Below are positions 1 through 58,854 of a stretch of 64,000 nucleotides of DNA, piece after piece. How positions within the stretch are numbered: position 1 is the first letter of the stretch; each line of letters begins with the position of its first letter. Where the stretch lies: positions 7,434,869-7,498,868 of the forward strand of contig NC_088711.1 in NCBI RefSeq assembly GCF_963576615.1. The letters are read 5' to 3'. The position numbers and the translations under genes are program-made. The notes under the pieces are model-generated. The model worked only from the letters and a program-made list of their open reading frames with translations, was not told the DNA's origin and did no database searches. Source of the DNA: Watersipora subatra (Eukaryota; Bryozoa; Gymnolaemata; Cheilostomatida; Watersiporidae).

Positions 1-113
1 TCAGAACTTGGGGTAGATGAAATTAGAGAACAGTTCACCCAAGTAACCTCGACCAACAAGGAGTGCATACCCCATACATATCAACACACACCGCCACACA
101 TACACAATCTTGA

Positions 114-3542: not shown

Positions 3543-3650
3543 AATATATATATATATATATTGTCCAAGCAAACAATATATATATACTGTATGTATATAC
3601 TGTATATATATACTGTATATATATACTGTATATATATACAATATAACAAC
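3541..3650. repeat. TA-rich microsatellite
   Basis: Alternating TA runs and TATATACTG repeats directly abut the outer arm of the LINE palindrome. Confidence 0.9.
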
Positions 3651-6667: not shown

Positions 6668-6830
6668 ATATATATATATCTCAATGCATGTCTGTTTTCG
6701 GTATGTCCAGCTATAGCTATTAAAACTTTGGATATAAAATTCTACATTACGCTGGACTTGAACTCACAACGAATGCATTGACAAGTTTCTTACCAAACCT
6801 TCTACCACTGAACTACAATGGCATAGTAAT
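6668..6830 (-). mobile_element. tRNA-derived SINE
   Basis: Read on the minus strand, the head has an A box (TAGTTCAGTGGTAGAAGG, complement of 6797-6814) and a B box (GAGTTCAAGTCC, complement of 6754-6765) at tRNA-like spacing. It ends in a tail with AGCTGGACATACCGAA and TA repeats. The tail matches the SINE at 26055-26225, showing a family. The body is too degenerate to be a functional tRNA. Confidence 0.75.
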
Positions 6831-6969
6831 CATATACTGAATACATCATGCGCGCTGAGTGGAAGAATGAGAGTGGCTGCAACTCAGTCCAAGGCTATTT
6901 GCGTTGAGCTCCTAGTACTGGCAGCGTAAAACGGCGTATTCTATTGAGTTCACCATGGCACTGAAATTG

Positions 6970-7500
6970 TTTTTGTCTAATAAACTATGCCACTCACAGG
7001 CTAGTCATAATTTGAGGTATATTGAGCGAAAATGTTATACCTGTGGAGTCTATTGAAAGTACAATAGTCAATATAGCAGGTAAATCTTATGATTTATTTA
7101 ATATTTATTTAATAATTTATTCAATTAAACTTTCATTTACTATATTTATATTAAATTATATTTTATTGTAAAATGTATATTATATTATTAAATTAATAAA
7201 TATTAAGCTTAAATATATGTAAGACTATGATATTAAAATTAAATATTTTATATTATAACAACAAATCATATAAAAATAATACATATCTATGAAATCAACT
7301 ATATTTTGCAATCATATCTTTGACTGCAATTGTATTTATTAATTATCAAAAAAGCATTCTACTTTCAGTCAATCACAAAATATATTATGTTATATGATTA
7401 AACTTCCATTTAGTACCATTTACTACCACTAATACATGCAGGCTTGTTATTTTGAGATTAAACTCCTTCTGGCTACACATTTGGAATATAAAACTTTCTT
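6970..7500. other. Very AT-rich non-coding stretch
   Basis: Between 7080 and 7340 the sequence is almost all A and T. No gene or named repeat is recognised. The right end grades into the 3' region of the minus-strand LINE. Confidence 0.5.
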
Positions 7501-8546
7501 TTATGTACATATATTCGAATCTGTCCAATACGCCCGAGGGCATTATATGAACATAAAATTTGAGATAAAATGGTTGATAAGAACGCTAAAACCTAATTTG
7601 TTGCAACACTAAGATCGTATTAAAAACTGAGGGAGCCACCAACGCCCTGACCCACAACATTCGGTGCCATTCTATTATAAAAAGAGTGCCTATATTGGTC
7701 TATCCTAAAATGTGGGTGGACTACTCCATGACGGGTTTGGTGGGATGGGTTAAAAGAGATATAGTTATTGAGGTCTAGTTCATATAGACCAAACTCAATT
7801 CTTTTTAAAAATTTCAAATCCAAATCTTCTCTTCTATCTTTTAGTTCTTGGATGTTATTTACACGCATGCACTCTGTGACACTATCCATAGGCCCGAGTC
7901 TGAAAATCCATCGAACCCCCCGTCTTTGAATTGTTTCTAATTTGTCAGTTAAGCCTTTTGCGTGCGGTGACCATACCTGACAGGCATATTCGAGTAATGG
8001 TCGAACAATTGTGTTATAGGCGACAATTTTTGTTGATATGCTTGCATTAAAAAGGCAGCGTCGGATAAGTCCGAGTGCCTTATTACTTTTCTTAGTAATG
8101 TTTAAAATATGCTCGTGCCACTTGATGTCGCTTTGTATGAAAACCCCCAAATATTTCAGACCATTCGCCTGTGGTATAAAAATTCCGTTCATAAAAAGTT
8201 TAAAATCTGGTGTCGACCTGCCCACCTGCATGTGGATACACTTTTCTGGATTAAATGTCATGCCCCACTGTGTGGCCCAATGCTGTAATGCTGTAACGTT
8301 AGTCTGCAAAGCCAGCTGGCTGGTGTTTGTCAAATCCATGCACAGCAGAGTATCATCGGCATACAGTCGACAGTCAGCGTCTTTCACACAGAGTGGCAAG
8401 TCATCGATGTAAAGAATAAACAATAGGGGTCCCAGCACTGAGCCCTGAGGTACTCCTGATTTAATACTAAAATTATGTGATGTATAACCATTCACTTGAA
8501 CCACAGAAGCTCTGTTTCTGAGCCACGCTTCTATCCATCTATACAT
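7500..8546 (-). mobile_element. 5'-truncated Jockey/CR1-type LINE
   Basis: Only the 3' half of the pol gene and a short 3' region remain. The truncation near 8546 falls inside the RT domain, the normal outcome of incomplete target-primed reverse transcription. Clade assignment within the Jockey/CR1/L2 group is inferred from RT motifs. Confidence 0.8.
7620..8546 (-). pseudogene. LINE reverse transcriptase, C-terminal half
   Basis: This open 308-residue minus-strand frame contains SGVPQGSVLGPLLFILYIDDL (residues about 30-50), the catalytic box YADD (about 62-65) and GLKYLGVFI (about 128-136). It ends with the thumb region RPLLEYACQVWSP and ETIQRRGVRWI, typical of Jockey/CR1 elements. There is no internal stop, so the copy is fairly young. 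Missing are the endonuclease and the RT fingers, so it cannot act on its own. Confidence 0.85.
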
Positions 8547-8610
8547 ATTTACATATACACATTAGTTGCATACATGATAAAATGATATCATGTACCATGT
8601 ACAGATATAC

Positions 8611-8645
8611 ATCAATGATATACAGGGGGACTGTATATCATTGAT
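8611..8645. repeat. Perfect hairpin with GGGGA loop
   Basis: ATCAATGATATACAG (8611-8625) and CTGTATATCATTGAT (8631-8645) are perfect reverse complements around GGGGA. Neighbouring ATGATATCAT and CCATGTA motifs extend partial symmetry outward. Confidence 0.85.
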
Positions 8646-9119
8646 ACCATGTAACCTGGTTAATGTATAACATAATATGAGGGGAATTAGGCACTCATGT
8701 ATACATTCTGGTGAGTAATTTTCTAGGGAGATGTATATGAGTGAATAGGGCACATTTTGAGCTTTTTATTGGTTACTTACTCCTGTTAGAGCCTTTGCTT
8801 CTAAGGAGTTTGATATTTCAGAGGCAAAAATTACGACAATCCGTATTAGCTCTAATGGTATAACTGGATATCCGCCGCCAGTGCTTCACCGAAAGTCGAC
8901 CAATGTATCCACTTTCATTCTTCCACTCAGCATGCGTGGGCTAATCATTTTAGTCTTGCGTCCAAGAGTTACGATGTTTCTGTTCAAAAATATTTTGCAA
9001 AAATATGCAACGAGATGCTTATTCGTCTTTTCTCGTTAAGGCTAATTTATTCGGCCCAACGATACCGACAATATTTTATCTCAAACTTAAAATTTGGCGA
9101 TTTGTATACTGATTATATA

Positions 9120-9833
9120 CAGTGGAACCTCGGCTTTTGGACGCTTCGGTTCTCTACCAACTTGGTTATCAACTGAAGATTCTGATATTTGTTCGTCTCG
9201 GATCGCGAACATAAATTCGAGAGCCTGCGCTTTGCAATTGGAACAGCTCCGGAAACAGCATGCGTGCATTCGTTAACAAACGGAGAAGCATTTTACGCTT
9301 CATAAATTCTTTACAAAAAGGGAGGAACCATCTGGGACGAAGAGATTTACCGAATAGATTTGCTAGAGAGATAACCTCTTTAGTCGAGTTATCCTAAATT
9401 GGTTAGGAGGAGGATTCTCCTTCGAAGATGTAAAGTAAACCTGCCATTGCTGTTTATATTTTCCTACGACTTTTGATGTAACTGATCTGTTGCATTTTTT
9501 TGCTGTTTCATAATCAATTGCTGCAATCTTTGTCGTTTTATCTTAACTTTTAATGTCTTTGATGTTTTAACAGCAAAGCATACGGAATGTTTACTTTTGT
9601 TTTATTTTTCCATCATCATAAATGGTTCACCTTTTATTAAAATTAAACACGATCTATATCTACCCGTTTTTATTTATAGTATGCAGTATACAGTACAGTT
9701 TATGGTGTAAAATACTTTACCCAAGTTGAATGGAATTAAAAATAGAATGGATTAAAATTTACTTACATTCATTCTAATGGAAAAAAGTGTTTCGGATCTC
9801 AAACAACTCGGTTTTCGAACCGAGGTTCCACTG
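9120..9833. mobile_element. 714-bp MITE, TA target site (pogo/Tigger-like ends)
   Basis: The ends are inverted repeats CAGTGGAACCTCGG and CCGAGGTTCCACTG, flanked by TA at 9118-9119 and 9834-9835. These are features of Tc1/mariner/pogo-type non-autonomous elements. Internal sequence has no transposase; the small opposing ORFs at 9087-9276 are shadows. Confidence 0.85.
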
Positions 9834-9904
9834 TACGTTATTAAAAAGTATACGTAGCTGAAAGTTATGAAATTTTAAATTTACCGTGGTTTGAAAATCT
9901 TTAC

Positions 9905-15896: not shown

Positions 15897-16349
15897 ATGT
15901 GACAATATTACAGTATTAGTGTTACAGTATTAGTGTTACAGTATTACAGTATTAGTGTGACAGTATTATAGTATTAGTGTGACAGTATTACAGTATTAGT
16001 GTGACAGCATTACAGTATTAGTGTTACAGTATTAGTGTGACAGTATTACAGTATTAGTGTGACAGTATTACAGTATTAGTGTGACAATATTACAGTATTA
16101 GTGTGACAGTATTACAGTATTAGTGTTACAGTATTACAGTATTAGTGTGACAGTATTACAGTATTAGTGTGACAATATTACAGTATTAGTGTGACAGTAT
16201 TACAGTATTAGTGTTACAGTATTACAGTATTAGTGTGACAGTATTACAGTATTAGTGTGACAGTATTACAGTATTAGTGTTACAGTATTACAGTATTAGT
16301 GTTACAGTATTAGTGTTACAGTATTAGTGTTACAGTATTAGTGTTACAG
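15897..16349. repeat. 22/14-bp minisatellite, expanded in unit A only
   Basis: About 450 bp alternates the units GTGTGACAGTATTACAGTATTA and GTGTTACAGTATTA. The matching place in unit B (about 47624-47652) has a single ATTACAGTATTAGTGTTACAG. It lies about 1 kb upstream of the FMO-A start codon. Confidence 0.9.
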
Positions 16350-17200
16350 AGTTTGAAAGAGCTGTCTCTTTTTTGAGACTGAGGAGTTATATTGGTAAAA
16401 GGTGTAATCATGTAATAGCTACTCTTAGTAAAACCTTCATTGTGGAGTCTCATTGATTAAGTCATCACGTATTGTTTTATATGCTTGACTGATTCAAAAT
16501 GTTGTGGAAGTGGTAGACAATCATTGACTAATTAGCATAAACCATTGTAAAAAGTTGTTGAATAGGAAATATCAATATTAAAACGATTTTTATGATGATC
16601 ACTTCATCTTTAACAAAAATGCATTTCATACAAATTCTTAAAGCTTACCATGTATGTAGCTTTTACTGGTAAGTGTTGATTTGATGACATAGTACATGTA
16701 TTCTATATTTTTTATAACCAAAGATTTGTATATTCTTAATAAGTAAAACTTGGTTCGCACAAGTTGCCTCATCAATTTTTGAGAGATGTAGCCAGACTGC
16801 ACCCTCTCATTTTTACTGGTCTTTTGTCAAATGGTTTTCGAATTCATGTAACCGACCTGAACTTGTTGAAACAACAGATTTGGTTGGGCTCAGGATAATC
16901 AGATTTAGCACTGATAGGTAATACGTACACTCACTGCCTTCATAAGAAGAGTCTTGCAGCATTTGTAGAAAAGAGTGTTTTGCGGAGCCCATGGGCAAAA
17001 AAAGGACAAAGCCCATGCTGCTACAATTGAGTTACTCATATCGACAGTTTGAATATCACATGAATAATATTTGCTTATAATCTATTATTGTTTATCTTGT
17101 AATGGTCTTGTCATTTGTCTTAACATTTATTACTTCTATGTAACATTCATTACTGGATAATAGGTAGAAGGCCTTTAGAATGTACGTCATTGATCAGCAA

Positions 17201-17394: not shown

Positions 17395-20300
17395 ATGAAG
17401 AGAGTGGTAGTTATTGGAGCCGGTGCAGCTGGTCTGGCAGCACTCCGTTCACTAGTCTCAGATAGCAACAAGCTACATTACGTTGCTTATGAAAGAAGTG
17501 ACAAAGTTGGTGGCACTTGGATACTAGATGACCCCTACAAGCCTACCAGCATGTACAATCAGTTGAGGTGTGGTTCTTCTTAGATTCGTAATCAACTATG
17601 ATGTGGCTCTTTTACTTATATTTGTTGATGTTGTTTACTTATACATCAAGTGATATTTTACTGCTTTTGCTTCTTTCAGGATTCGGATGTTAAGCTATGT
17701 TCAGACTAGACAACATTAAAACACTTTTAATTAAATTTTCGTCTCTCATCGAGAAATTACATTTGCATAATCTCATATAGCGTTTTTTATGGTTGTCCTA
17801 CTGTAAGCTCTGCTTATGCTAATAGGTTCAGCGCAAAATTTGCATGGTTTAAAGATGTAGTTGCATCAAAAAAGTCAATTAGGACCCATAAAAGGCTAAA
17901 ACATCAGCTACAATTTGATGCCATTTTTGTCTTTGTAGACCAACCCTGTCCAGAGATATATGCGTTTGAATGAGGCCCTCTTTTAAAAAGCTCACGTTCC
18001 AGCGGGTGCCTATTTCGTGACGTCACAAGCAAGGTATCTGAAACGAAACCACGAGCAATAAATATGAGGTCGATTCGTTAGCCAATCATGCGCGCGAAAT
18101 TTTTATATAGGCCGTAATAAATGTTATCACTCGTAAAGCGCGTTGTCTGTGATCTCGAAGATTCTCCTAATTAGAGAATTCATTCTCATTCGTTGCTGAT
18201 TCAACGCGTTTCAACAATTACTAAGTTATACATAGTTTTAAAATGGCTTCAAGTTCGAGCGACCGCTACTCAGAGTTATCTGAGCAACTTTTAGTATAAG
18301 ATTAGAGTAGACAGCCTATGGCCAAAGCTGACAGGGGTCAGCAGCGTTTTGCTGCAGAAGAAGACAGAATGGAGGTAAATTAACTTAGAGTCTTCTATAC
18401 TTTAGTAAATGTAATGTTTTTTATAGTCATAAATACATATACTAATTAATAAAATGATAATTCTTTGCTATCTCCAATCATCGTTTCATAGCTTATCTGC
18501 CGTTTTACCTAGCTATAATATTTTTTTCGAATTTTCTTTGGTAAATTAGAGTCATGATTACAAATTATTTTCACTCGTAGGAAGTGGGTAAAATCGATTG
18601 ATCATTGCAAATCTTTAATTTCCAGAACCAAAGCTTCGAATCGTTGGCTTGGCGTACCGGTGCCTTTATTAAATGTTTATTCGTTTTTAAAATTACACTC
18701 GCAATCTATTTAACTCCCAATTTGGAAGCTGTCAATAGATACGCTTTAGAATGACATATCTATGAATGACATATTTATTGCATCTACTTTGTTTACATTT
18801 ACTTGTTTTACTGATTACAGAATGTTTATGTCATCCCACCAGCCGAAGAAGCTTTGTCAGTGTGGAAACTGCCATAAAGGAGAAAGCGAGACTTGAATGC
18901 GTGCTGGATAAGCCATGATGTTTTGTTTGAGTTTGTTGCAGTAGATGAATTTGTCTTATTGTATCAGCTAATACTATGTGAGTGGCCACGACTTGATGAA
19001 TATTTTTAATAAAAGCTTTATGCCGAGATGAAAATATTTTTGCTTGTAAAAATTATATAATAAAATAATATTGTTAAAGATAATGCAAAACATGATTTGC
19101 AGAATATTGTAGTAAATCGGATATGGTATATGGGTGTCCGCAGAACGGGAGAATGTGAGTTCAAATCCAGTTTGCAGCAGACTTCTCATCCTTAAAACTC
19201 TATCCTTGTCTATATTCTTTTCAAAGAGGTGGCTTGCTTATTTCACTTATCTAGTATTCGGTAAGAATACTAGTAAGAAACTAGTACGTAGGCAATAGGT
19301 AATAGGCGACATAATGTGGGCGGGGCTTATGGGAGGCTGTATATCGTTTGTATGGGTAGCTGCAGAACTGAGCTGATACAAAGACCGCGTTCTACAATAG
19401 TGACTTGACAGAATTACCGTAGACCGGTAGAATTGGTAGTCGGTACCCAAATGTTTACACAACATTTGGAGAAAGTGAGTAGAACAAATTTTCAATTTTC
19501 GTTATTTGAGGCCTTTGAAACATTCATAATCATGCATCTGTAGCAGGATTTAAAATTTTATTCTAGCCAACATGAGCAAATACAAAATAAGATATATGCC
19601 AATAGAGCCGCGTAAGACTAGACTTTTATCGCAAATACCCGATGTGAATACGAGAGATAAAGACAGGTTGCCAAACGCGTGACATCATTTTGGGCAAGTC
19701 TGGGCACGTTTTGGTGGCCTGAGCGTTTTTACGGCGATCAGATTTTTTCGGTTTTAATCTTCAAATATCTTGGCAATGCGATCGCGTAACACAACAAACA
19801 ACATATCAACTGATAGAGAAAAAAAATGCTTTCTTTTAAGATCAACTTAAATTTTGACGCAACTACATCTTTAAGGTCATCGTAATGCTTCGTTTTCACG
19901 AGTTAATAAGTTTGTAAACCATAAGAACTTATATTTACATTGTGTAGATCGTAAGCGTAGTCTCTTTGCCAAACTATACAATATTCTTCAGTATATTATT
20001 CTACTAGTCTTAATGATAGAGATTGTCAGGTGTATATATAAAGCAATTGAAGTTTGAATTTAAATTTAGCAAATGCAGTATAAAGCCAACCACATGGTTC
20101 AAATTGGCCAAGCAGAGATGAAATTTGACTTAGCCAGGCATTCCCATCTGCATCATATTCCTTTGGTATGTCTATTGCACAAATCGCATCAGTTTACCAT
20201 CAGTAGTGTGTTAGAACAGTGTTGAGTTTGAAGGAGGCTTCAAAACAACTACAAATATTTTTTATTTGGTTAGTATGCTTTGTGTGTTCACCTGTAAACA

Positions 20301-29300: not shown

Positions 29301-32300
29301 ATATAACAATATTTGCCATTCTAACTTTCCAACTACATATCATGAGAGAAGATTTTTGGCTAGTTAAAATACATTTAAATTAAAAAGAAAATAAAAACAA
29401 CTAAAGGTTTTCAAACTTTGTCAAACAACTGTAGCGTTCAAACTTCATATCATTAGGAAAAGTTTTGGGTCAGGACAACTTAATTAACAGCATTCCGAAG
29501 TTTCAAGTCTGTTGAATTACTAGTTCATGAGATATCTTCAAAATACTGAGGGTATATCAAACAGGCTGAGAGATAAAAAAGGCTGCTGACAGGAAATTAG
29601 TTTCCAATAGCACACTGGCTGAATTTCTCGGTAATAAAGGTGCAGCAATAGACTCAGATAGAGGTTCAAGTAGGTGTTTCTACTCCCTCACACTAGCTCA
29701 TAACCTGTTGTTATTGCAAACAAAAAGTCAATTCATTAATAAATGAATTAAAAAAGAAAGTTATTAGAGTTCATCCAATTTGAAGGCAGCACACAACGAG
29801 GCCTAGATTTCTGTGGGAGTATGCAACCATAGCTGTATTGAAAAAGGTATAGTCACATCGATGGTACAACGAAACTTACCTTCTTTTATTTACTTGCATG
29901 TACACGTATGTATTCTGCACTACAACAATATCGATAAGTATACTTGGGGCCGAGGTTCAGGGCTTGGCTCATAGTTGTGATTCATTGTGCACAAAGGTTG
30001 AAAAGGACTTGGAATCTGCCAATGATAATATAAGGTGATCTATGAGGTTCTTCTGTTAGCTCTAAAGCTAAGCTTGAACTTTTAAAAAGGCCATAGGTAT
30101 ATCCATTTTAAACAAATCTAAGACGCCGTTACACCGATCAATGAGCTCAAACTAAATCTCAAATTTACAGCATGAAGTTGGCTCTTCTCAGAGTTCATGG
30201 TGCTAGAAACCTTAGCGACGTGTAAACAATCAAATAGTAGAGTTATGTTCTACGATATATCATTTCTAGGTCTCTCTGTAGGCATTACACAGAGCCCCTA
30301 GTGCCTGACATCAAGGGAAGGACCTCATTCACCGGAGAAATCATGCATTCACACTACTATCGCTCCCCTATCAAGTATAAGGGTAAGGTAGTCTTGGTGT
30401 TCGGATCAGGCCCTTCGGGCAAAGAAATAACTGCAGAATTGCTTCCTCATGCTTCAAAGGTACAAAGTCTTAAAATTTTAATCTTACATGTATTTCTTAA
30501 ACATTTTTATTAATAGTTGTATGAATGTATATTCTAAGAGGAATACGTAATGTTAGTTATAAGACAATTAGTTTTTGCCTATTATAGATCTGGTCGGTGA
30601 ATACAGGATATTGTGGTATATTGTACCTGTTATGCCTTATATTGTACCTGATATACCCTGGATTAAACAAAGTGTTTGTAAAGTGCATGTGTTGAAGTTG
30701 AATGAGACGAGCAAGTAAACTGCTGCATACTGACTCGAATCTACAACTGAATTGTACAGGTCTACCTCAGCCATAATAGGATAGGCACTCAGTTCACACC
30801 AACACACCGACAAGTGCTGGAGGTGGCTGGTGTTGATAGCATCACTGGAGATGACATTCATTTGATAGATGGGAGCATTGTGCACGCTGATATGATAATC
30901 TTGACCACAGGCTATAGGTATTCTATTTACTTTTTGTTCTGAATTGCTTCTCTACTAGCTCATATTTGCATTCTGACAAAGTAGGCATTTCATAATTTTT
31001 AAAGACTTGGTACCATCATTGGTAAGTACTAGTATTTATTTTTTTAAATCCGTTTATCGTTTTTTGATGCATCAAATCAGCTCTTGCTTTTGCTATATGT
31101 TGACATCGTCGTTATTAACTTCAATGACAATTGTTCATTTGTTTAATGCAGTAATCTTCGACGTTACAATTTACACTTGCTTGTAACATACTAGTGACAA
31201 CTCTAGCAGGTGAGGTAAAATGATCGTCTATCCAACATTTATCCTATGATTCTCTATTCTCACAAGCCTGTAGTGAGTTTTTTCTCACTTTAGGTACGCT
31301 TTTCCATTTCTGTCAGCGAAATGCAGACCAGTTATTGAAGACGAACATGTATCTCATATATATCAGATGTTGAGAGACATTAAACATCCTAGTCTCTACT
31401 ACATCGGCCTCAACAAGGCCCTTGTTCCCTTCCCTCAATTTGCCTGTCAAGCAGATTACATTGTTGGCTGTATTACCGGGCGTATTGCACAAGAAACCCA
31501 AGAAGTGAGTGGAGATCGCTGCTTGCAACTACTACTAGTACTAACCAGCTTTGTGTGAACTAGACAAGGCTTTTGCCTGTACAATTACATTCTCATCTGC
31601 ATACTGTGAAACCATTGCCTGAAAAATTGCCTTCTGATGAAAACAGTAAAACTACGTACAGTATAACCTTGGCATGCGGAGTTGATCCATTTTTATATCT
31701 GTTATAGTTTAAAGGTTGACTTGCAATAAAATTCACATTACAGTTATTTGGTATCAAAAGATTCGCCATGTCTTACTCTGTTGTGTTGTAGGTGCCAAAT
31801 ATGTGGGAATGTGATTAAAAGCTCTTAAAAGCTAAAAAACGAAAAGCCGCCGTAGATTGGAATCTCTTGATTTCGATGAAGTATCCGCGGAGTTTGGTTA
31901 TTGTCTTGTCACGTGATGTTCTCGCGTGAATTGAAAGGCCAATAAAAAGCTCAATATAAAACTTATCGTAGCAATAGTTTATGACAAACACTTCGGGTTT
32001 TACCTAAGACCCCGTATCAAATATAGATGCTCGCTACTTTACAGTTTCAGCTTGGCCATTCCATCCGACAATTCAACATACGTGTACATGTCCGAGTTGC
32101 GATCATAAAAAATGTCAAACTCTGAAGAGTTAAGACCCTGGCGTTTCGAGTCTGACGCTCTATCTGAAGAAGATCCTCAACAGAATCAAACCTCCCAGCA
32201 AGTAAGCACCGCCACTCGCCAGCTCTTATGTGCCAAGCTAGCTAGTAGTAATAGTTTTAGCTAGAGAGTGATAGAACGAATATTACTATATATATATGAT

Positions 32301-35300
32301 TTTTATGATGATAATTATCGCTTCATATTGCGAAAAAATAATTACAGATTTTTCTCGAATGACAACATTAACAATTTTAATATTTAAATCTAGTGCTGCA
32401 CTGATATACTGTTGGATAACATCAACCTGATGTATTATTATGGTTGCATAGACATATCTGTTCATTTCTTTAGGAGCTAATACCACTGGCTACAGAGTGG
32501 TGTGTCTGCAAGCGCTGTCAAGACATGCCATCTCTTCCTGAATGTTTGTGCTGCCATGATGCTGAGTTTGCGCATCGTCTCCATGACTGCGGGGAGCATG
32601 AATGCCTGTGTATGCATCCTGATGTGGACGAACTTGTGGCGCCTGCACCCCTTGAGTTGCGGTGGAATAATTACTTGCGATATCATAGTGAGTTGGATTT
32701 TCATTTAATGCCAACAACATCAAAGCTATGCTAATGTGTCAAGCATTATCTACAATTCTTGTGTTACACATTTAATGCATCGGTTGAACACACATATTCT
32801 GAACTCGTGGAACACAAGGAGAATTGTTATATTTGGCTTGTACACTTACTACAGCAGAGAGTGTATTAGTTTTATGATTTTATTATATAAAGATCGAGAT
32901 TATTTTGATGATCAGCAATTATTGTTTTTCAATAATTGTTTTGGTAGATAATCTATTCCCATTTGGAGAGCCATCGCCAAATGCTTGGAAAAGGTTGTGT
33001 GCATACCGCAATCTTGTGTTTTGGTTTATGCCGCAAATCTTGTTTGCAAGTCTGCAAACTCTTCTTCATGATCCGTTGGTGGAAAAAGAGCCCGAATCTT
33101 AGACACCAGGCAGGTAGAGGCCGTCGCTCACCACGACGAATTTGCGGCATAAGCCAAAACACAAGCTTGCGGTATGCGCACAACCTTTGTAACAACATCC
33201 GTTGTAATGGACCTCACTCTCAGGCCGTGGAAATTAGATCGGACTGGCATCGCTTGAAGCCTTCCAGCTCCATGGCGTTAGAGCTGGTGGTCTCCGTTGA
33301 CTGCAAAGTAAAAAAAGTTACGACCAAAAATCACTTTCACATTATTTGAATGAATTATTTAGCTAAATCAGCAACTTCATGTTTATGTATTGATAACTAC
33401 TAAAAAATTTGGGTTTTTGTCAGGCTGTGAAGTCAAAACTGTCAAAGTTTTACCTTGACAAGATGGCTGCTGACTATTAAGCCGCAGCTCTGATCCATCA
33501 TAGTGTAGGCCCCGTATAGTGCGCAATGCCCCGGACTATCGCATCTACCGTCACCTGCCAAATCAAGCTCCCAATCGATTGCTGCCATCAATCCCTCGTT
33601 ATGCAGGGTGTACTGCTCAGCAATACACTGTAAAATATTGTAAAACTTCATTATACAAGATTAATTCGTATCATTATCATTAGTCTAAGAATGTAGAATC
33701 CTCTTCCCCCTTTTTTTGTTATATTATGATGAAGAATCAGAATTTTAAATTATAATATATTTCGCTTGAAGGATGACATATTTTCATTTCAAGAAAAAAA
33801 TTGTTTCTAAATGCCGTTATTCAATTAGTGTGCCTAGCTTTTACTCACATTTTCCAAGTTTATGGGTAAATATTAACACTCACACCATGTAAGTATTCTC
33901 TTTGTTGGTAGAGGCAAACGCTGTGGCTTGGTATCGCGATGTTCATGACAGAAAACGGAGGTTCTGCGTAAGGCATCCGCCAGAAAAGAGTGATGCAGCT
34001 GCCAGCAGGGGGTTGATGACGTGAGCTCTGTTCACCCTGGCAGTTGTTTCCCAAGTGTACAATTGGTGACAGGAGGCACATGTAACCTTGAACTCTACCC
34101 ATCCGCCTTCTCGCACCATCGTGAATGAGCAGGGGAGGGCGCAGGCGTGACAGTGAAATAGTCGCTGGAGTGCTGTCACACTATTATTTTTTCCTCTTTG
34201 AAGGAGGATTCGGGTCTGAAATCACAACACAATAGTTGACTTGCAATAAGATTTGTACAACATCATTTCCTGTTATTATATCATATTTGCTTGATCAGAA
34301 AAAGAATAAATATATAGCCATGCAATCATGACACAGATTTTACAAAACCTTATCAGAATTCATGATATTGTAAACATAAAAATGTGAGTAATAACTCTAT
34401 GGATATTCTTTATATTTTGTCAAGTTTGGTTAAGTTCAGCTCTATCTTACATGTAATTGGAGAGTGTTTGACGCTGGCCAACATAGCGCTCAAACTCTTT
34501 CCAGTCTTCAGTGGTTGGCACAAACTCTTCATCATCTAATACTAATAATAATCATCTAATAATACTAATATGCTATTAACGATGATACCAGAAAATGACA
34601 ATAACTATTTTATATAACATATCTATAAGTGAGTGGGGTTAAGAAATTTGGCGAAATTAATCGTGAAACGTATAACATTATTTTATCAATTATAGATTAA
34701 TATATTACGTTTTACATATAGATATGCAGTATGAGTTAGTTTTGTTATTATAATAAGAATAATACACGTAATTAAAAAGATAAAATACTAATAATATCAT
34801 ATTACAATTAAATGACATTAATATTGTTATATTAAATATAGATTAATACAGTAGTATTAGGAGAATACTAGAAAATAACCCGAGTTACTACTACTAATAC
34901 AAGTAGTTCATAAAATAAATTACTCACGTGCTTTGGTGACATGTGGAGTATGCAAACAGGTTAGAAAACATGTCGTCTTTGAAATGGCGAAAACAAAGGT
35001 AAGAGTAAGCAGGTGAATAAATAAAGTTTGTCACATCCAGCTTCACCCAGTTGCTCCACGCCCGGTGATGGTCTGGTCTTTTCTCTGCTCTTGGCCAAGA
35101 AAAAAGGTGCTTCTCAGCTTGCCAGCTGCACAAACACGATGTGGTGCGTTAGACATGACGAATTGAAATTAACAAATTTAATACGAGAAAGCATATCTGT
35201 TATTTGCGATAGATCAAACTTGAACTGAAACTAAAATTATCTGATCATGTGACTTACAATTCCCGCCATATGGCGCGAACAATTTCTACAGCATTTTTCG

Positions 35301-36549
35301 ACCATCATAGCGGACCAAAAGGCTCATCATGTTTGTCAGAGGATGATAAGCAATCGTTCAAGCTAAGTTTAAAAAATTAAACATATTTTTATGCTAGGTT
35401 TTGAGATATCACTGCTCAAAGTTGCAGCATTACGATGCCGATAAAATAGACGCGTAAGAACAATAGACATGGTTTTTATTGCAAGCGTGAAGTATATTTG
35501 TGAAAATAGTTCGACGAATAAGGATGCATGAAAGTGTAAACATAAACTATCTCGCACACATACGTCACATTTTAGCTGTTTTGGAAAACGAATCCAAACT
35601 AGGGCAGTCTCATGTGGCTGCGATTTTCTGTTCGTTTTTGAGCTTTTAATCACATTCCCACATATTTGGCACCTACAACACAACAGAGTAAGACATGGCG
35701 AATCTTTTGATACCAAATAACTGTAATGTGAATTTTATTGCAAGTCAACCTTTAAACAAATAGTTTTATATGATTATGTTGTATTTTGTTTAATTTGTTC
35801 AATAGCCAAAAAATATATACTCCAATTAGTTACATAACATCAAAATTGGATTGGAAGTGTGAACTCTGTGATGTAAAGGTGGCAGTAATAAAACTAAACA
35901 CCCTAACATACTGTTAACTACAACTAGATATAATCTAAATTAACTTGATTTATACGTTTTGTTATTTTGACATCTAAATCAGCGTTTTTACTTTTATTTA
36001 CTATTTGTAATCCTTCTAAATATTACTTCGGGTGCCACTACAAATAGTTGCTCATAATTTACATTGTATGTCATGCAACCAGTAATTTAAGTTTTGAGTG
36101 TGATCGCTTTACATAGCCAAGGTTCTAGAAGATACTTTTCATGCGTACAACTGTGCTTTTGTTGAAATTGTCTTCTCTTTAAATTTTATATTTGTGAAAG
36201 GTATGTTTAGGACCATCTTTTATTTCACATATAAGACTGGTGGTAATTCTCACTGTTACTTATTACGCAGAATATGGAGAGAAGTTACCAGGAGAAGCGA
36301 GACCGGACTGTAAAGGAGCGTGGCCGGCTCAAATTATTTCATGACATGAGGGCAGAGCAATGGCCATATAATGATCAGCTAGCGATTGCTAGTGGAATGC
36401 AAACTTTGCCTAATTGGATGAAAGAGCTGGACAAGCGTGTTTTACACCAGAGAAAAAGTAATTTACGCGGATATAAGAATGCTGTATATCGGTTAAGTGA
36501 AGACCAAAAAATCATAACCTTAAATACTGCAACAAATCTGCAGAGCTAG
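17395..36549 (+). CDS. Flavin-containing monooxygenase A (7 exons, 424 aa)
   Basis: Exons: 17395-17567, 22668-22809, 28651-28784, 30282-30459, 30760-30917, 31294-31504, 36271-36549. The phases agree and no stop interrupts. FMOs use FAD, NADPH and O2 to oxygenate nucleophilic N or S. Visible motifs are the FAD site VIGAGAAG (residues 6-13), [18 protein letters not shown] (59-66), the FMO signature [11 protein letters not shown] (166-176), the NADPH site GSGPSG (191-196) and TTGYRYAFPFL (258-268). There is no C-terminal membrane anchor, as in many invertebrate FMOs, so it is probably soluble. The start is the Met before KRVVVIGAG; an upstream in-frame extension looks like 5' UTR. The exon 3 acceptor is an unusual AAG. 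Where FMO-B has LD after the NADPH glycine motif, this copy has KE (197-198). Substrate unknown. Confidence 0.92.
17853..19870 (+). mobile_element. 2,018-bp TTAA transposon in FMO-A intron 1
   Basis: The ends AGATGTAGTTGCATCAAAA and TTTTGACGCAACTACATCT are inverted repeats flanked by TTAA (17849-17852 and 19871-19874). The duplicated intron copy at 21592-21630 has the uninterrupted GCATGGGTTAAGGTCATCG, the empty site. TTAA targets suit Kolobok or piggyBac families. Inside, a palindromic GTGACGTCAC lies near 18017, and a B-box-like GAGTTCAAATCC at about 19158-19169 marks a possible SINE scrap. Confidence 0.85.
18243..18905 (+). pseudogene. P2X7 ballast-like gene remnant inside the TTAA element
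   Basis: A first exon starts MASSSSDRYSELSEQ, is broken by stops, and resumes MAKADRGQQRFAAEEDRME before a GTAAAT donor. A second segment after an acceptor near 18820 reads KKLCQCGNCHKGESET, similar to the CXCXXC start of the P2X7 cytoplasmic cysteine-rich domain. It is badly decayed. The assignment leans on the better-preserved relative at 32112-32697. Confidence 0.35.
20345..20650 (+). mobile_element. LINE 3'-end fragment
   Basis: The frame FWNQLPKTIKSIEVASFK, then RELRLHLLTGE and a stop, is the usual C-terminus of Jockey/CR1-type pol proteins. About 130 bp of 3' region follow, ending in TGATGAAAATAAA. It interrupts one copy of the duplicated intron sequence. Confidence 0.75.
21066..21132 (+). 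pseudogene. Dead extra copy of FMO exon 2
   Basis: ACTAATTTACCAAAGGAAGT and GATAAGATCTATGA match exon 2 of FMO-A. The splice acceptor CACAG has become CACAT, a TAA interrupts the frame where the gene has TCG, and homology stops after KIYE. It lies about 1.6 kb upstream of the true exon 2 and cannot be spliced in. Confidence 0.85.
23280..23922. mobile_element. 643-bp MITE with CCCTACAGGA ends
   Basis: CCCTACAGGAGGAAACTAT and its imperfect complement (ATAATTTCATCCTGTAGGG) bound the element, with TATA on both sides (TA or TATA duplication). It is in FMO-A intron 2; the same intron in FMO-B lacks it. Confidence 0.75.
23938..24780. mobile_element. Probable MITE with CTCTAATTGAA ends
   Basis: ACCTCTAATTGAATGCCACC at the left and GGCGCTCAATTAGACATGTTA at the right form an imperfect inverted repeat. 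The left motif recurs at 24034. An internal inverted pair GAGCAAAACTTTTACGC and GCGTAAAAGTATTGCTC lies near 24376-24436. Boundaries are approximate. Confidence 0.5.
24795..25660 (+). repeat. Dispersed repeat family R3, two partial copies
   Basis: Segments at 24795-25118 and 25440-25660 match pieces of the elements at 50707 and 53124 in unit B, sharing GTATTAAAAATTAGTAGC-type, TTAACCTTAGTAACTGTAG-type and ACCATGGCTAA-type motifs. An R1 copy (25119-25330) sits between them. A matching right end (GTCGTAACTCGGGCTCCACTG) is at about 26411-26431. Confidence 0.5.
25119..25330 (+). repeat. R1 repeat copy, degenerate head
   Basis: CTAGGTGAATGCCCGGCG, then CTGGGTAATAAAA and TTTGGACAG, follow the R1 pattern at 29232. 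Here the stem of the head hairpin is damaged. Confidence 0.6.
26055..26225 (+). mobile_element. tRNA-derived SINE
   Basis: A box TAGCTGAGTGGTTAAGCGCG (26062-26081) and B box GAGTTCAAATCC (26113-26124) are at tRNA-like spacing. The tail AGCTGGACATACCGAA and GAGATTTATATAAATATA is shared with the SINEs at 6668 and 26728. Confidence 0.8.
26728..26892 (+). mobile_element. tRNA-derived SINE followed by R1
   Basis: An A-box-like CAGCTTAATGGTTAAG and a B box GAGATCAAATCC precede the same tail (CTGGACACAAGG..., GAGATTTATATATATA). The TA tail runs straight into R1 at 26893, suggesting the two may travel or insert together. Confidence 0.7.
26893..27100 (+). repeat. R1 repeat copy
   Basis: It starts CTAGCTGTGCTACCCGGC, then GTTGCCCAGGTAATAAA, CTTTGGTCAG and CATATCATGAGG. 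Right boundary approximate. Confidence 0.65.
27100..28430. other. Intron 2 sequence without recognised features
   Basis: No coding segment or terminal repeat pair is recognised. Homology to FMO-B intron 2 resumes near 28380, so most of 23.1-28.38 kb is unit-A-specific insertion. Confidence 0.5.
29232..29480 (+). repeat. R1 repeat copy in FMO-A intron 3
   Basis: It starts CAGCTGTGCTACCCGGCATT, then GCCCGGGTAATAAAA and TTTGGACAG. The hairpin stem ACCCGG/CCGGGT is intact. Intron 3 of FMO-B (638 bp) lacks it. Confidence 0.7.
32112..32697 (+). pseudogene. P2X7 ballast-like gene, first half
   Basis: Exon 1 (32112-32201, donor GTAAGC) encodes MSNSEELRPWRFESDALSEE and ten more residues. Exon 2 (32474-32697, donor GTGAGT) reads ATEWCVCKRCQDMPSLPECL, CCHDAEFAHRL and the histidine/cysteine-rich stretch HECLCMHPDVDEL, then LELRWNNYLRYH. 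This matches the start of the zinc-binding cytoplasmic domain of P2X7 (WCxCxxCxxMP...CLCC). No channel domain is present. Stand-alone relatives occur in invertebrates. The expected second half is not next but lies inverted at 33040-33196, so the gene is rearranged. Confidence 0.65.
33040..33196 (-). pseudogene. P2X7 ballast-like gene, second half, inverted
   Basis: On the minus strand, RLCAYRKLVFWLMPQIRRGE, then RRPLPAW, and in another frame VSKIRALFPPTDHEEEF resemble the AYR-F-W...RR-LPSC-V--IR--FP half of the same domain. It directly follows transposase-like sequence on this strand. Part of it (33130-33196) is copied in reverse at 32975-33055, where the + strand reads RLCAYRNLVFWFMPQI, so the pair forms an inverted repeat. 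Confidence 0.6.
33200..35156 (-). pseudogene. THAP-domain Kolobok-like transposase, broken
   Basis: Minus-strand exons in order: 35156-34928 begins MSNAPHRVCAAG and, after a frameshift, HHRAWSNWVKLD and YLCFRHFKDDMF, a THAP finger; donor GTGAGT. About 34216-33876 encodes CHACALPCSF, then CASCHQLYTWET and NPLLAAASLFSGG, a zinc-ribbon and conserved transposase segment, with a frameshift after LRFLS. 33627-33454 encodes LAGDGRCDSPGHCALYGAYT, a likely acidic catalytic block, between good splice sites. About 33290-33205 gives NAMELEGFKR and, after stops, LRVRSITTD. Frameshifts and stops rule out a working enzyme. The C-terminal third is missing or replaced by the P2X7-like fragment. Confidence 0.7.
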
Positions 36550-44576: not shown

Positions 44577-45254
44577 ATTCTTATTCAACTGTCACAAAAC
44601 TATTATGCTAAACACACTGCAAACAATACTGGATAATAATGATCGCTTTAGGGTCTCAGAAGAAACGATTCTCAAGGGGAAAAATTGAAGATTTCAAAAT
44701 GATAAAAACGCTGATGACGATGTACGAACATGTGGAACATTTCAAGAGAAAGAATATACAATGGCAGTAAGTAGTAAAAATAAGGCTTGCAACAGCAATT
44801 TAATAGGATGTGTTGATTGTTGATTGATGATACAAACAACTGACTTCTGAAGTAAAATCAGGGCAACCTCCGTACCAGGCCACCCAAGAACTGACGTTTG
44901 GTTATAGGAGCTGAGACACCTTCAATGATTAACCACACGCTTTGACACTACCTGCGTAAGAGCCGACAATACAAACTCAACATCACAGCCGATAATAAAT
45001 TATGTATATACCAGCATAAATCAAGCAAGAGCTTGAAATCTGCACTGACAACAGAAACTGGAATCTCCATTGAGAAAACACCAACTGTCATCTATGACAA
45101 TTATGTGAGATGAGGATAAGTTTTTGTTCAGAAAGATCGATCAGTGATATGCATGGTAAGATGCTGTTAACCCTGTGGTGTAACTGTATTGAGCGCTCTT
45201 TAAGCACTCATGAAGCATTCTGCTTATTAAAAATTCTGCTTCAAAATGTATTAA

Positions 45255-46130
45255 AGGCTGATTTGCAACAAAATTCACATTACCGATATTTGATATGAAA
45301 AGATTCACCATGTCTTACTCTGTTGTGTTGTAGGTGCAAAATATGTGGAAAGGTGATTACAAGCTCTTAAAAGCTCAAAAACGAACAGAAAATCGCAGCC
45401 ACACGAGACCGCTGTAGTTTGGATTCCCTTTCCAAAACGGCTCAAATGTGATGTAGTTGTGAGAGATGGTTTCTGCTTACACTTTCTTGCAACCTTATTC
45501 GTCGAAATATTTTCACAAATATACTTCACGCATTCAATAAAACCATGTCTATTGTTCTTACGCGTCTGTTTTATCGTCATTGTAATGCTGTCACTTTTAG
45601 CACTGATATCTTATAACTTACCGTAAAAAATCGTTAAACTTTTTAACCTTAGCTCGAAGGAGTACATATCATTGTCTGATAATCATGACAAGCTTGTTGG
45701 TCACCTGTGATAATCGAAAAGAGCTGCAAAAATTATTTGCAAAGTATTGTGTCACATGATCAGATTTCAACTTGACGATTGAATAATGTTGAAACAAAAC
45801 TGTAAAGTAGCGAGCATCTATATTTGATACGGGGTCTTCGGTAAAACCTGAAGTGTTTGTCATAAACTAGTACTACGATAAGTTTTATATTGAGCTTTGT
45901 ATTGGCCTTTCAATTCATGTGAGAACATACCTGACAAAACGATAACCAATTTTTGTGGTTTCGTCATTGAAATAAAGAAATCCCAATCTACGTCGGCTTT
46001 TCATTTTTGAGCTTTTAAGAGCTTGTAATCACATTTCCACATATTTGGCACTTACAACACAAAAGAGTAAGACATGGTGAATCTTTTGATACCAAATAAC
46101 TGTAATGTGAATTTTGTTGCAAGTCAACCT
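45255..46130 (-). mobile_element. 876-bp TTAA MITE, relative of the 4-kb element
   Basis: The right end AAGTCAACCT and left end AGGCTGATTTGCAACAAAA, with TTAA at 45251-45254 and 46131-46134, match the family at 31713. Internally it joins left- and right-end sequence of the big element, inverted relative to it, with no transposase. The empty site is at 14321 in unit A. It is older than the 31713 copy, judging by its diverged left end. Confidence 0.85.
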
Positions 46131-46134
46131 TTAA

Positions 46135-54600: not shown

Positions 54601-56590
54601 ATGTGTCCAGACAATATTGACTTGTAGCCTAGAAGTATGTGTCTAGACAATATTGACTTGTAGCCTAGGAGTATGTGTCCAGACAATATTGACTTGTAGC
54701 CTAGGAGTATGTGTCCAGACAATATTGACTTGTAGCCTAGGAGTATGTGTGCAGACATTATTGACTTGTAGCCGAGGAGTATGTGTCCAGACAATATTGA
54801 CTTGTAGCCTAGGAGTATGTGTCCAGACAATATTGACTTGTAGCCTAGGAGTATGTGTCCAGACAATATTGACTGTTTAATGTGCAGCACTCATTTTTCA
54901 TTGTCCACACTTTTTCATTGTCCAGACTTTTTCAATGTGTGGACATGGCTCAGTCTGTAATATTATGAAGGAATGAGGGTTGTCTGTACTAGCATTTAGT
55001 TATAGATTATCAATTTATCCTCTCTGATGCATCAGATCTGCTCCTGCTTTTTTTATATGTTCAAAGTTGACAGCATCATTATCAACTTCAGCGAGAACTG
55101 TCATTTGTCTAATGACTCTGCAGTAACCTTCTGTTACAATTTACACTTGCTTGTAGCATATTAGTGACAACTCTAGCAGGTGAGAGAGATCTTCTGTACA
55201 ACATGTACCCTTATGATTCCATATTCTCTATTCTCACTAAGTTTTTCTCACTTCAGGTACTCTTTTCCATTTCTGTCAGCAAGATGCAGACCAGTTATTG
55301 AAGACGAACATGTATCCCATATATATCAACTGCTGAGAGATATTAACCATCCTAGTCTTTACTACATCGGTCTCAACAAGACCATTGCTCCCTTCCCTCA
55401 ATTTGCCTGTCAAGCAGATTACATTGTTGGCTGTATTACCGGGCAGATCGCGCAAGAAACCCAAGAAGTGAGTGGAGATCACTGCTTGCAACTACTACTA
55501 GTACCTACCAGCTTTGTGTGAACTAGACAAGGCTTTTGCCTGTACAATTAAATTCTCATCTGCGTACTGTGAAACCATTGCCTGAATCTCGTGATATAAA
55601 ATGTTTCCAATAAGACAAGCATGGGAAAAGATTTTAATGAGTGGTTGCTAAAGTATAACCTTGACATGCGGAGTTGGTCCATTTTGATACTTGTTATAAT
55701 TTAAACAAATAGTCTTATACGATTATGTTGTATTTTGTTTAATTTGTTCAATAGACAAAAATAAATACTCCAATTAGTTACATAACATCAAGACGAATGT
55801 ATTATATAAGCCAATTTAAAAAACTAAACTAGTAAAGTAATAGTCAGTAAAATGTGTGTTTTACTGTTAATTTACATTAGAAAATCGTGATTGGAAGTGT
55901 GAACTCTGTGATATGAAGGTTCAGTGATAAAACTAAACACTCTATCATACTGTTAACTACAACTAGATATAATCTAAATTAACACGATTTTTATATTTTG
56001 TTATTTTGACATCTAAATCAGCGTTTTTGCTTTCATTTACAAATTGTAATCCTTCTAAATATTACTTTGTGTGCCACGACAAATAGTTGCTCATAATTTA
56101 CATTGTATGTTGTACAACTAGTAATTCAAGGTTTGAGTGTAATTGCTTTACATAGCCAAGGTTCTAGAAGATACTTTTCACTTATACAATTGTGTTGCTG
56201 TTGAAATTGTCTTCTCTATAAATTTTATATTTGTGAAAGGCATGTTCAGGACCATCATTTATTTCACATATAAAACTGACGGTAATTCTCACTCTGTTAC
56301 TTATCACACAGAATATGGAGAGGAGTTACCAGGAGCGGCGAGACCGGACTGTAAAGGAATGTGGTCAGCTCAAGTCATTTCACCACATGAAGACAGAACA
56401 ATGGACATATAATAATCAGCTAGCAATCGCTAGTGGGATGCAAACATTACCTACTAGCATGGAACAGCTGTACAACCATGTTTTAGACCTGAGAACAAGT
56501 AATTTATGTGGATATAAGAATGCTGTATATCGATTAGGTGAAGACCAAAAAATCATAACCTTAGATACTGCAACAAATCAGCAAAGCTAA
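48672..56590 (+). CDS. Flavin-containing monooxygenase B (7 exons, 424 aa)
   Basis: Exons: 48672-48844, 49610-49751, 51650-51783, 52422-52599, 52894-53051, 55257-55467, 56312-56590, all GT-AG and in phase with FMO-A. Motifs: VIGAGAAG (6-13), [18 protein letters not shown] (59-66), [11 protein letters not shown] (166-176), NADPH site GAGPSGLDI (191-199) and ATGYRYSFPFL (258-268). The NADPH and ATGY motifs are closer to the family norm than in FMO-A, so B looks the more conventional enzyme. Exon 7 is the most diverged from A (for example [16 protein letters not shown] versus [16 protein letters not shown]), while exon 2 differs by one residue (Y68 for F68). No signal peptide or membrane anchor is seen. 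The exon 6 donor, if read through, gives a short alternative tail ([17 protein letters not shown]) in both genes. Substrate unknown. Confidence 0.92.
50155..50400. repeat. TA-rich microsatellite in FMO-B intron 2
   Basis: About 240 bp of TATATACA and TATATATG repeats. The 77-codon ORF over it (runs of Ile/Tyr) is an artefact. Confidence 0.9.
50707..51240 (+). repeat. R3 repeat copy in FMO-B intron 2
   Basis: It begins CAGTCAACCCCTGCCATATG after TA and shares internal blocks (ATGATTCTTACTTCTTCCTT, GGAACCATGGCTAAC) with 53124-53866. The right end was not found. Probably a DNA-transposon derivative. Confidence 0.6.
53124..53866 (+). repeat. R3 repeat copy in FMO-B intron 5
   Basis: The left end CAGTGGACCCCTCGCCATAC and a possible right end TCTCGAGGGTGCTATG form an imperfect inverted repeat. 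Intron 5 of FMO-A is only 376 bp, so this and the next element are B-specific. Confidence 0.6.
53899..54986. mobile_element. Probable DNA element containing a minisatellite
   Basis: The ends CCATAGATCCCCGCTTCTTC and GAAGGAATGAGGGTTGTCTG are imperfect inverted repeats with TA outside. Inside both ends TTGTCTGGACAATG and TGTCCAGAC motifs echo the minisatellite unit, which suggests the array grew from the element's own subterminal sequence. Confidence 0.5.
54193..54874. repeat. 36-bp minisatellite, 19 copies
   Basis: The unit TAGCCTAGGAGTATGTGTCC + AGACAATATTGACTTG repeats with exact 36-bp spacing and few substitutions. As 36 is a multiple of three, long ORFs run through it: 260 codons on the minus strand with the 12-residue repeat [12 protein letters not shown]. 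Lying in an intron of FMO-B, it is most simply non-coding. Confidence 0.95.
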
Positions 56591-57905
56591 ATTTCATCTA
56601 GCAACTTTCGCAGTCTGTCAAAATGCTGACAAGCTAAAGACTGGCCTCTAGTATATTTAGCGATTGCGAAAGATGACCAATATTTTTACATTTCAAAATG
56701 TGAGCCCTTTTTATAAATTTTTAATTGATTCATTTTTATGATCAGATAAGACTTTTATTGCCAAACAATTTAACAATGATGAAATGAGGTTGATGATGGA
56801 ATTGAATAATGATGGACAACCATAGATATATAAACCTAGATTGGCCAATAGGGATAAAGCCTGTCAGACTTAAATAGCATGACGTAACGTCATTGTATTG
56901 TACCTCACGCTTGACTGCACTGTTGATAACAATGGAGCTTATGAGAAGAATTTGACAAAATCACATTTATTTTCACATAAAAACTTTCTTGGATACATAA
57001 TCCAGTAAACTAAAGCAATTTTGTGATAATATCGGATAACCACCTTAGATTAAAACTATAAAAGCTATGAATTGTTACGAACAAGTCATGAGTCATCAGG
57101 GCTTTATTTGCCACCCTTTCCTATCCCCGGTCTCTCTTTTCCCCTTCTCCAAATAAGAAGTGAGAAGGGGAAAAGAGAGAAGGGAGAAAGGAGAGGGGGG
57201 CAAATGGCCCACCCACTCAAAGATCCAGACCCTGGCTAAGTAAATAGACTAATATCATGTTGAACTAAACATGACTAAATATGATGAGCCTGTGAAGATT
57301 TGATCTGATCAGGGAAATGGAATCAATGGCTTTCTTAGCTACAGCTGGAACGAGACCAAGGAATGCAGGGTCGGACCAGACTCGGGGTCAGCAATGAGGG
57401 CCAAGATCGGGTCGAACCAGGTCAGCACGCGCGATTTTTTACTCATTTAAGGTTAAGAGATAGTTCCATTACAGCCTAATGTTGTGACATCAATAAACTG
57501 AGATAGAAGAAACCCTTATCACACCAATCATTATATTTTGTGACTTGGTTTATAGATGCAATCTACAATTTATGGCTAGACATTGGTGGATCAATGCTAT
57601 TCAATGGGTGATAGATTAATGGCATGATTTGGCTAGTGTTTTTATTACAGATTTTATTTTCAACTGCTATTATAATCAACAAGAGATTAGTTAAGAAATA
57701 CTTTACAAATATAGAAATAGATAACCCAGCATAGTGGAAAGCAAAACTCCATCACTTCCCTAAAACTTCTGGTATTAGTGAAAGAAACTAAAAATAAAAT
57801 AAATTTGCTGGATTGAAGGTTCTTAGATGCGCTTTTAAGTTCCTCAGGATGCCCTCGTTGTAAATGCCTCAATAGTATTGACGTGGATCGTTCTTTGTAG
57901 CTTAA

Positions 57906-58850
57906 AGGTTGACTTGCAACAAAACTCACATTACAGTTATTTGGTATCAAAATATTCACCATGTTTTACTCTGTTGTGTTGTAGGTGCCAAATACGTGGA
58001 AATGTGATTACAAGCATTTAAAAGCTCAAAAATGAAAAGCCGCCGTAGATTGGAATCTCTTTATTTCGATGACGTAGACATTACAGTTTGGTTATCGTCT
58101 TGTCACGTGATGTTCTCACGTGAATTGAAAAGCCAATAAAAAGCTAAATATAAAACTTATCGTAGCACTAGTTTATGACAAACACTTCGGGTTTTAGCGA
58201 ATACCCCGTATCAAATGTAGATGCTCGCTACTTTACAGTTTTGTTTCGGCATTATTCAATCGTCAAGTCGTCATCTGATCGCGTGACCCAATACTTCGAA
58301 AGTAATTTTTGCAGCATTTTTCGATTATCACAGGTGACCAACAGGCTCGTCATGATTATCAGACAATGATATCTACTCCTTCGAGCTAAGGTTAAAAAGT
58401 TTAACGATTTTTTACGGTAAGTTATAAGATATCAGTGCTAAATGTGACAGCATTACAATGACGATAAAACAGACGCGTAAAAACAATAGACATGGTTTTA
58501 TTGAATGCGTGAAGTATATTTATAAAAATATTTTGATGAATGAGGTTGCATGAAAGTGTAAACAGAAACCATCCTGTAACAACTACGTCCCATTTGAGCC
58601 CTTTGGGAAAGCGAATCCAATGGCTTTTCAATTCACGTGAGAACATCGCGTGACAAGACGATAACCAAACTGTAATGTCTACGTCATCGAAATAAAGAGA
58701 TTCCAATCTACGGCGGCTTTTCATTTTTGAGCTTTTAAATGCTTGTAATCACATTTTCACATACTTGGCACCTACAACACAACAGAGTAAGACATGGTGA
58801 ATCTTTTGATACCAAATAACTGTAATGTGAATTTTATTGCAAGTCAGCCT
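57906..58850 (+). mobile_element. 945-bp TTAA MITE nested in the P-like element
   Basis: It starts AGGTTGACTTGCAACAAAA and ends GCAAGTCAGCCT, with TTAA at 57902-57905 and 58851-58854. The inverted ends are about 229 bp each (57906-58134 and 58622-58850), longer than in the 31713 element, so it is a fold-back derivative of the same family. TCACGTGA occurs in the left end. Confidence 0.85.
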
Positions 58851-58854
58851 TTAA

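Follow-up and report, generated by a model that had tools for sequence, protein, structure and literature searches.

The window analysed here, a stretch of 64,000 nucleotides of the bryozoan Watersipora subatra (contig NC_088711.1, positions 7,434,869 to 7,498,868), carries a TTAA-flanked transposon with two genes on opposite strands, namely a gene for a small protein resembling the cytoplasmic ballast domain of the P2X7 receptor, designated here as KolX, and a THAP-type transposase (Table 1). The element proper starts with AGG at position 31713, immediately after the left TTAA, and its termini (AG...CT) show the 5'-RR and YY-3' form used to define Kolobok transposons. The sequence-only reading of this locus had reported identical 112-bp ends, which was confirmed, and across 123 nt the two ends are 98% complementary, with 120/123 positions in agreement. 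The empty insertion site that had also been reported was recovered at a paralogous locus, where the joined flanks of the element align without interruption to nt 55649-55791 (144 bp, 91.7%) and a single TTAA is present. Agreement between the two ends of the same copy ranged from 113 to 118 of 123-125 positions in 14 other copies, a rough comparison with the window copy, since these were picked for having one end resembling that of the window and L009, whose left end is cut off, was not counted. By end identity the window copy looks young.

All exon borders of the window KolX gene follow the GT/AG rule. The spliced P2X7-like exons previously proposed are two of its three exons; the third, starting at nt 32948, had been missed. 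The reading frame stays open as far as the middle of exon 3, where it enters an inverted fragment, and six of the seven cysteines are kept. The similarity to P2X7 had been claimed for the piece 32474-32697, and for that piece the claim literally failed, as exon 2 alone matched 0 Pfam families; the spliced product, on the other hand, reached 20 bits with the P2RX7_C family (E 0.00071), under the cut-off of 23.5. In our reading this score is weak because exon 3 is truncated, the intact KolX of a longer relative (L032, see below) reaching 45.7 bits (E 9.1e-12), so that the similarity was upheld for the gene. The inverted second copy of exon 3, which forms the right arm of an internal hairpin, was absent from the five longer relatives examined (L029, L031, L032, L033 and L040).

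On the minus strand, the transposase is broken, as the sequence-only reading had stated. The exon with the first catalytic D and the zinc-ribbon exon are kept, whereas the second D, the DxxH motif, the E and a stretch nearer to the start are lost as a result of two deletions. The N-terminal THAP piece (nt 34924-35148) scored 17.5 bits (E 0.0074), under the Pfam cut-off of 23.9.

Table 1. Features of the KolX-bearing element, of related sites in the window and of two family-2 loci (window coordinates unless a locus is named)
Feature	Position	Strand	Remarks
Whole element	31709-35755		TTAA-flanked transposon, internally deleted copy of a 6.9-kb family
Left TTAA target-site duplication	31709-31712	.	
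Left terminal inverted repeat, TTAA included	31709-31820	+	112/112 identical to the right end
KolX (P2X7-ballast-like) exon 1	32112-32201	+	ATG start, donor GTAAGC, 30 aa
KolX exon 2	32474-32687	+	acceptor TTTAG, donor GTGAGT; 6/7 conserved cysteines
KolX exon 3, truncated	32948-33102	+	NNLFPFGEPSPNAWKRLCAYRNLVFWFMPQI, then inverted fragment; seventh cysteine gone
Internal hairpin, left arm (forward exon 3 piece)	32990-33038	+	94% complementary to 33140-33188
Internal hairpin, right arm (inverted KolX exon 3 copy)	33140-33188	-	at the deletion breakpoint
First internal deletion junction	33188-33198	.	~1.7 kb between the KolX 3' end and the second-D region of the transposase, replaced by the inverted fragment
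Transposase exon with first catalytic D	33442-33660	-	GDGRCDSPGHCALYGAYTMMD
Transposase zinc-ribbon exon	33943-34221	-	
Second internal deletion junction	34549-34557	.	lacks about 1.58-1.6 kb that L033, L029/L030 and L040 retain
Transposase N-terminal THAP exon	34924-35156	-	frame-shifted; start codon at 35156
Right terminal inverted repeat, right TTAA (35752-35755) included	35644-35755	-	
Second Kolobok-like element, 2.03 kb	17850-19876	+	relic of the KolX start
Short family derivative	45251-46134	.	both ends, no gene core
Empty TTAA site, paralogous locus	55701-55704	.	
Short family derivative	57902-58854	.	both ends, no gene core
Inverted KolX-end pair, family 2	L037 3228-3415 and 4021-4213		
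Inverted KolX-end pair, family 2	L038 4835-5022 and 5624-5816		

To place the window copy within its family (family 1), the genome (784 Mb) was searched and 20 loci were taken around strong matches to the element end sequence. Fifteen of these could be delimited and, together with the window copy, gave a set of 16 copies of 3.2 to 4.5 kb, L009 lacking the first 44 bases. Of the remaining five loci, L012 and L028 extend beyond the stretch retrieved, a single end was seen in L025 and L027, and L016 is a 0.7-kb copy with neither KolX nor the transposase core. TTAA flanks both ends in 14 of the 16 delimited copies, the left end being CTAA in L015 and cut off in L009. All 16 match the first two KolX exons and part of the third, with exon 2 partial in L018 and interrupted in several others. 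Eight of the 16, the window copy included, share the exon-3 truncation; in seven, more of the forward exon 3 is present and its inverted copy comes next, and in L017 the forward exon is reduced to its first 12 residues, with the inverted copy alongside. No copy of at least 3 kb without KolX was found among those that could be delimited.

Longer copies were reached through the exon-3 places obtained with the Pfam P2RX7_C profile; one of the loci, L034, is a 4.5-kb derivative and was left out of later comparisons. Joining L030 to L029 gave an end-to-end element of 6,863 bp, which is flanked by TTAA at either end and exceeds the window copy by 2.8 kb. L029/L030, L031, L032, L033 and L040 all carry KolX and the transposase core exons on opposite strands, with L031, L032, L033 and L040 read short of the far end and L032 and L033 also short of the THAP exons. 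Exon 3 of KolX is intact in L032 and L033. In L032, the KolX gene, spliced from three exons on the plus strand with GT/AG borders, encodes 180 aa without a stop, and this product had P2RX7_C as its sole Pfam match, with no P2X channel domain. The spliced transposase core of the same copy, on the minus strand, matched the Mutator-like family PF20700 (42.1 bits), and its core residues were placed by eye as D (DGRCDSPGHC), D (TTDRH), DxxH (DAWH) and E (NTAELESFH), with H and C residues (HMRDDHRLCDH, also read by eye) between DxxH and E. The THAP start of L029 scored 17.4 bits, below the Pfam cut-off; stops interrupt both genes of L040, L029 misses most of KolX exon 2, and no copy was found, as far as each was read, in which every exon of both genes is open. 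The complete family is an element of ~6.9 kb with two convergent genes, KolX reading inward from the left and the THAP-DDE transposase inward from the right.

The association of the two genes was also evaluated across the genome, using 71 transposase places hand-picked, one row each, among the listed rows of 257 matches, and two KolX searches in each of which at least 150 places were scored; all 150 rows of the first were compared, and of the second those on the contigs concerned. At 28 of the 46 transposase places with at least 60% identity a KolX match lies within 8 kb, in every case (28/28) on the opposite strand, against a chance expectation of about 0.003 per place; 12 of the 28 are outside both the C2:46-54 Mb cluster and the small contigs. 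The other 18 places are not to be counted as negatives, because the KolX matches compared stem from the 150 candidates scored per search, and the two of them that were read (L040 and L009) both carry KolX. Among the places with less than 60% identity, none of 25 had a P2RX7_C match within 8 kb among the matches listed. These looked like KolX-free families, but L039, the sole one of the 25 that was read, carries a KolX; since this KolX scores under the Pfam cut-off, absence from the lists of P2RX7_C matches is no evidence of absence of the gene.

The 8-Mb stretch C2:46-54 Mb holds 25 of the 46 hand-picked transposase places with at least 60% identity. Common flanking DNA was found for L029, L031 and L040, so that the copies of this stretch are not independent insertions, the shared flanks indicating one insertion multiplied within a larger repeat.

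Three further KolX groups were recognised, each with a transposase on the opposite strand: family 2 (L037), family 3 (L035 and L036), in which KolX consists of one exon, and family 4 (L039). A second family-2 locus, L038, carries KolX, with no transposase match within its 8 kb. Identity of KolX to family 1 is 45, 38 and 26%, families 2 and 4 being compared without exon 1, and the seven cysteines, together with R118 and R150, are invariant across the four KolX proteins compared. P2RX7_C scores were 33 for family 2, 58.4 for family 3 (the one-exon KolX of L036, over profile positions 25-192) and 18.5, below the cut-off of 23.5, for family 4; THAP scores above the cut-off were obtained for L039 (29.8) and L035 (39.5). 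Among families 2-4, element ends were found for family 4 only.

The ends of family 4 link it to the second Kolobok-like element of the window, at nt 17850-19876. L039 is an 8.0-kb element with the same ends, carrying KolX, THAP and transposase, and it aligns to the window element at 90% over the first 0.8 kb and 94% over the last 0.5 kb. Because both the ends and the alignment agree, we consider the 2.03-kb element to be derived, by deletion, from a Kolobok-like element that carried KolX. The sequence-only reading, which had suspected a P2X7-like gene in the element starting at 17853, was right about its kind, through L039, while in the element itself the relic is at the limit of detection (best E 0.016 and 0.032). 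A copy of this 2.03-kb element (95%) also lies at 4477-6463 of L012, between parts of a family-1 element copy. Upstream in the window, at nt 15910-16350, a long short-repeat array of type ACAGTATTAGTGTG was seen by eye.

Several structural peculiarities were observed at the other loci. In L036, nt 1-3424 and 6471-9894 form a 3.4-kb palindrome (99.97%) with two one-exon KolX copies, and a transposase remnant is present at 3344-3577. On C9, three KolX matches (16086053, 16094958 and 16103863; L037) are exactly 8,905 bp apart, a spacing that suggests a tandem array of the family-2 element; comparison of the two ends of L037 gave no match. In family 2 too, an inverted KolX gene end lies just downstream of KolX, as in the family-1 derivatives.

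Selection on KolX was estimated by counting synonymous and non-synonymous differences, leaving out L009 and, from the final full-length group, L031, which is a near-duplicate of L029. Comparison of the majority bases of 15 derivatives with those of four longer copies gave 12 differences in KolX, nine synonymous and three non-synonymous (pN/pS 0.09; Fisher p 1.1e-4), whereas the ratio within the 15 derivatives was 0.67. For the two transposase exons, the pN/pS values between groups were 0.25 and 0.14, and those among the derivatives 0.76 and 0.51. When the four longer copies were compared with one another, KolX gave 0.31 (58 summed differences), the zinc-ribbon exon 1.11 (27) and the first-D exon 0.52 (28); a different set of copies, with a shorter part of exon 3, gave 0.13 for KolX among full-length copies. 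The 12 differences between groups indicate that KolX was under purifying selection before the derivatives arose. Small as these numbers are, KolX thus acts like a core gene of the element until the birth of the derivatives.

The sequence-only reading had left two possibilities for a P2X7-like domain in a transposon: the gene is cargo, or the domain was a transposon protein from the outset. That KolX is a fragment of a host gene, carried passively by one transposon family, would agree with the amplification of derivatives that have no intact KolX, with the exon-3 truncation shared by half of the delimited copies, and with the relaxed ratio of 0.67 within derivatives. The derivatives, however, amplify without the transposase core too, and the two transposase exons are equally relaxed in them. 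Moreover, all four KolX groups have the same convergent arrangement with a transposase, their seven cysteines are invariant, and selection is seen between the full-length and the derivative lineages; given purifying selection, KolX belongs to the transposon's own genes and is not carried along passively. We therefore regard passive cargo as very unlikely and rejected it, the longer copies and three further groups all pairing KolX with a transposase. The second possibility, a domain belonging originally to the transposon, is the one upheld by the presence of KolX in every delimited copy, by its position beside a transposase in the other groups and by the selection signal. A single locus, L038, points in the opposite direction, having KolX and no transposase match within 8 kb.

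As regards the link to P2X7, a single KolX searched against PDB sequences found P2X7 at E 0.0069 only. A profile of four KolX proteins searched against 177,635 PDB sequences ranked the four P2X7 sequences first, with E values from 8.1e-7 to 2.4e-5, and the match that followed had E 0.2. With rat P2X7 (E 8.1e-7) the seven KolX cysteines align with cysteines of the receptor, and KolX R118 and R150 align with R546 and R578, two of the five rat GDP-contact residues; H547, R574 and K583 are unmatched, by eye, in the family 1 KolX. As described by Rump et al. 2020 (PMC7016195), R546 and R578 are the only GDP-site residues kept in invertebrate domains, and ballast domains occur in sponges, cnidarians, arthropods, nematodes and molluscs. 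In the account given by Kojima and Bao 2022 (PMC9587614), Kol0-lineage KolX is similar to residues 476-595 of human P2X7, a region corresponding to the cytoplasmic ballast fold with seven conserved cysteines, and P2X7 originated when a P2X4-like gene became fused to KolX. Further papers linking KolX, the ballast or P2X7 to Kolobok were not found among the literature-search matches listed.

Two other explanations of this similarity are extremely unlikely. Transfer in the opposite direction, from a P2X7-type receptor gene to Kolobok, draws on the fact that sequence comparison alone gives no direction, but the KolX groups are deeply divergent, Rump et al. (PMC7016195) describe the ballast as unjoined to a P2X receptor outside vertebrates, and the argument put forward by Kojima and Bao (PMC9587614) runs from transposon to receptor. 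Chance resemblance between cysteine-rich proteins, which the window exon alone and the single-KolX search would allow, was rejected on the intact relatives L032 and L036 and on the profile match to rat P2X7 with all seven cysteines aligned, and is hardly credible.

The P-element transposase needs GTP and has a built-in GTP-binding domain. By analogy, KolX might be a guanine-nucleotide-binding cofactor of the THAP transposase, acting in trans as that domain does within its protein; we consider this improbable, although the counterparts of R546 and R578, being invariant in the four KolX proteins, agree with it. If it were true, transposition control would survive as a fossil in the GDP pocket of vertebrate P2X7.

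When compared with known systems, the element shares with the Kol0 type of Kolobok carrying KolX (Kolobok-1_XT type), as described in PMC9587614, the TTAA target, the 5'-RR...YY-3' ends, a DDE transposase with DxxH and KolX as second gene. The C/DxxH DDE pattern of Kolobok is present in the relative L032, and the window copy retains the first D alone. Unlike the Kol0 type, the window copy is a deletion derivative, and the L035/L036 group has a single-exon KolX; the putative membership in Kol0 is based on KolX and on architecture. KolobokP, from the description of Kojima and Bao 2022 (PMC9587614), belongs to the same superfamily and likewise has its second gene on the strand complementary to the transposase. 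Of its traits, long terminal direct repeats were not found in the window element, whose ends are inverted, and no nuclease family, such as its His-Me nuclease, was matched by any of the proteins scanned against Pfam. The C-terminal ballast of P2X7 (PF20478, P2RX7_C) has the same seven cysteines and the two arginines, but is joined to a channel, while KolX is a small free-standing protein. Nanor/ZCD proteins, according to Rump et al. 2020 (PMC7016195), are also short and have the same zinc motif as KolX, but are encoded by one or a few (<10) genes per species, whereas at least 150 KolX places were scored here. With the exception of L038, every KolX place that was read is within or next to an element with a transposase or a derivative of such an element, and in the main text of Rump et al. 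(PMC7016195) the string 'transpos' has 0 occurrences.

Taken as a whole, it is highly probable that the window element is a non-autonomous, deleted copy of a KolX-bearing (Kol0) Kolobok transposon and that the P2X7 ballast is a captured transposon protein. The structure, the TTAA insertion with its empty site, the coding relatives, the conservation and the selection signal were observed; as for the mechanism, the THAP domain of the transposase would bind the ends, and the element would be excised and inserted at TTAA. KolX may act together with the transposase, as a small protein stabilised by zinc and able to function when supplied in trans. Neither protein can be made whole by the window copy, which would have been mobilised by fuller relatives; the deletion with an inverted exon-3 fragment at its breakpoint probably arose when gap repair following excision was interrupted and switched template. 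As published (PMC9587614), the ballast of vertebrate P2X7 would be the captured transposon protein.

The transposon origin of the P2X7 tail is thus already in print, in the account of PMC9587614, since 2022. Measured against published descriptions, what is added here is a genome with four KolX groups, the selection signal and the anatomy of derivatives with an inverted exon fragment. The occurrence of four KolX groups in one genome supports the published transposon source of the P2X7 tail. It also means that the 'P2X purinoreceptor 7 intracellular domain' model can mark transposons, and that gene counts made under that name can mislead.
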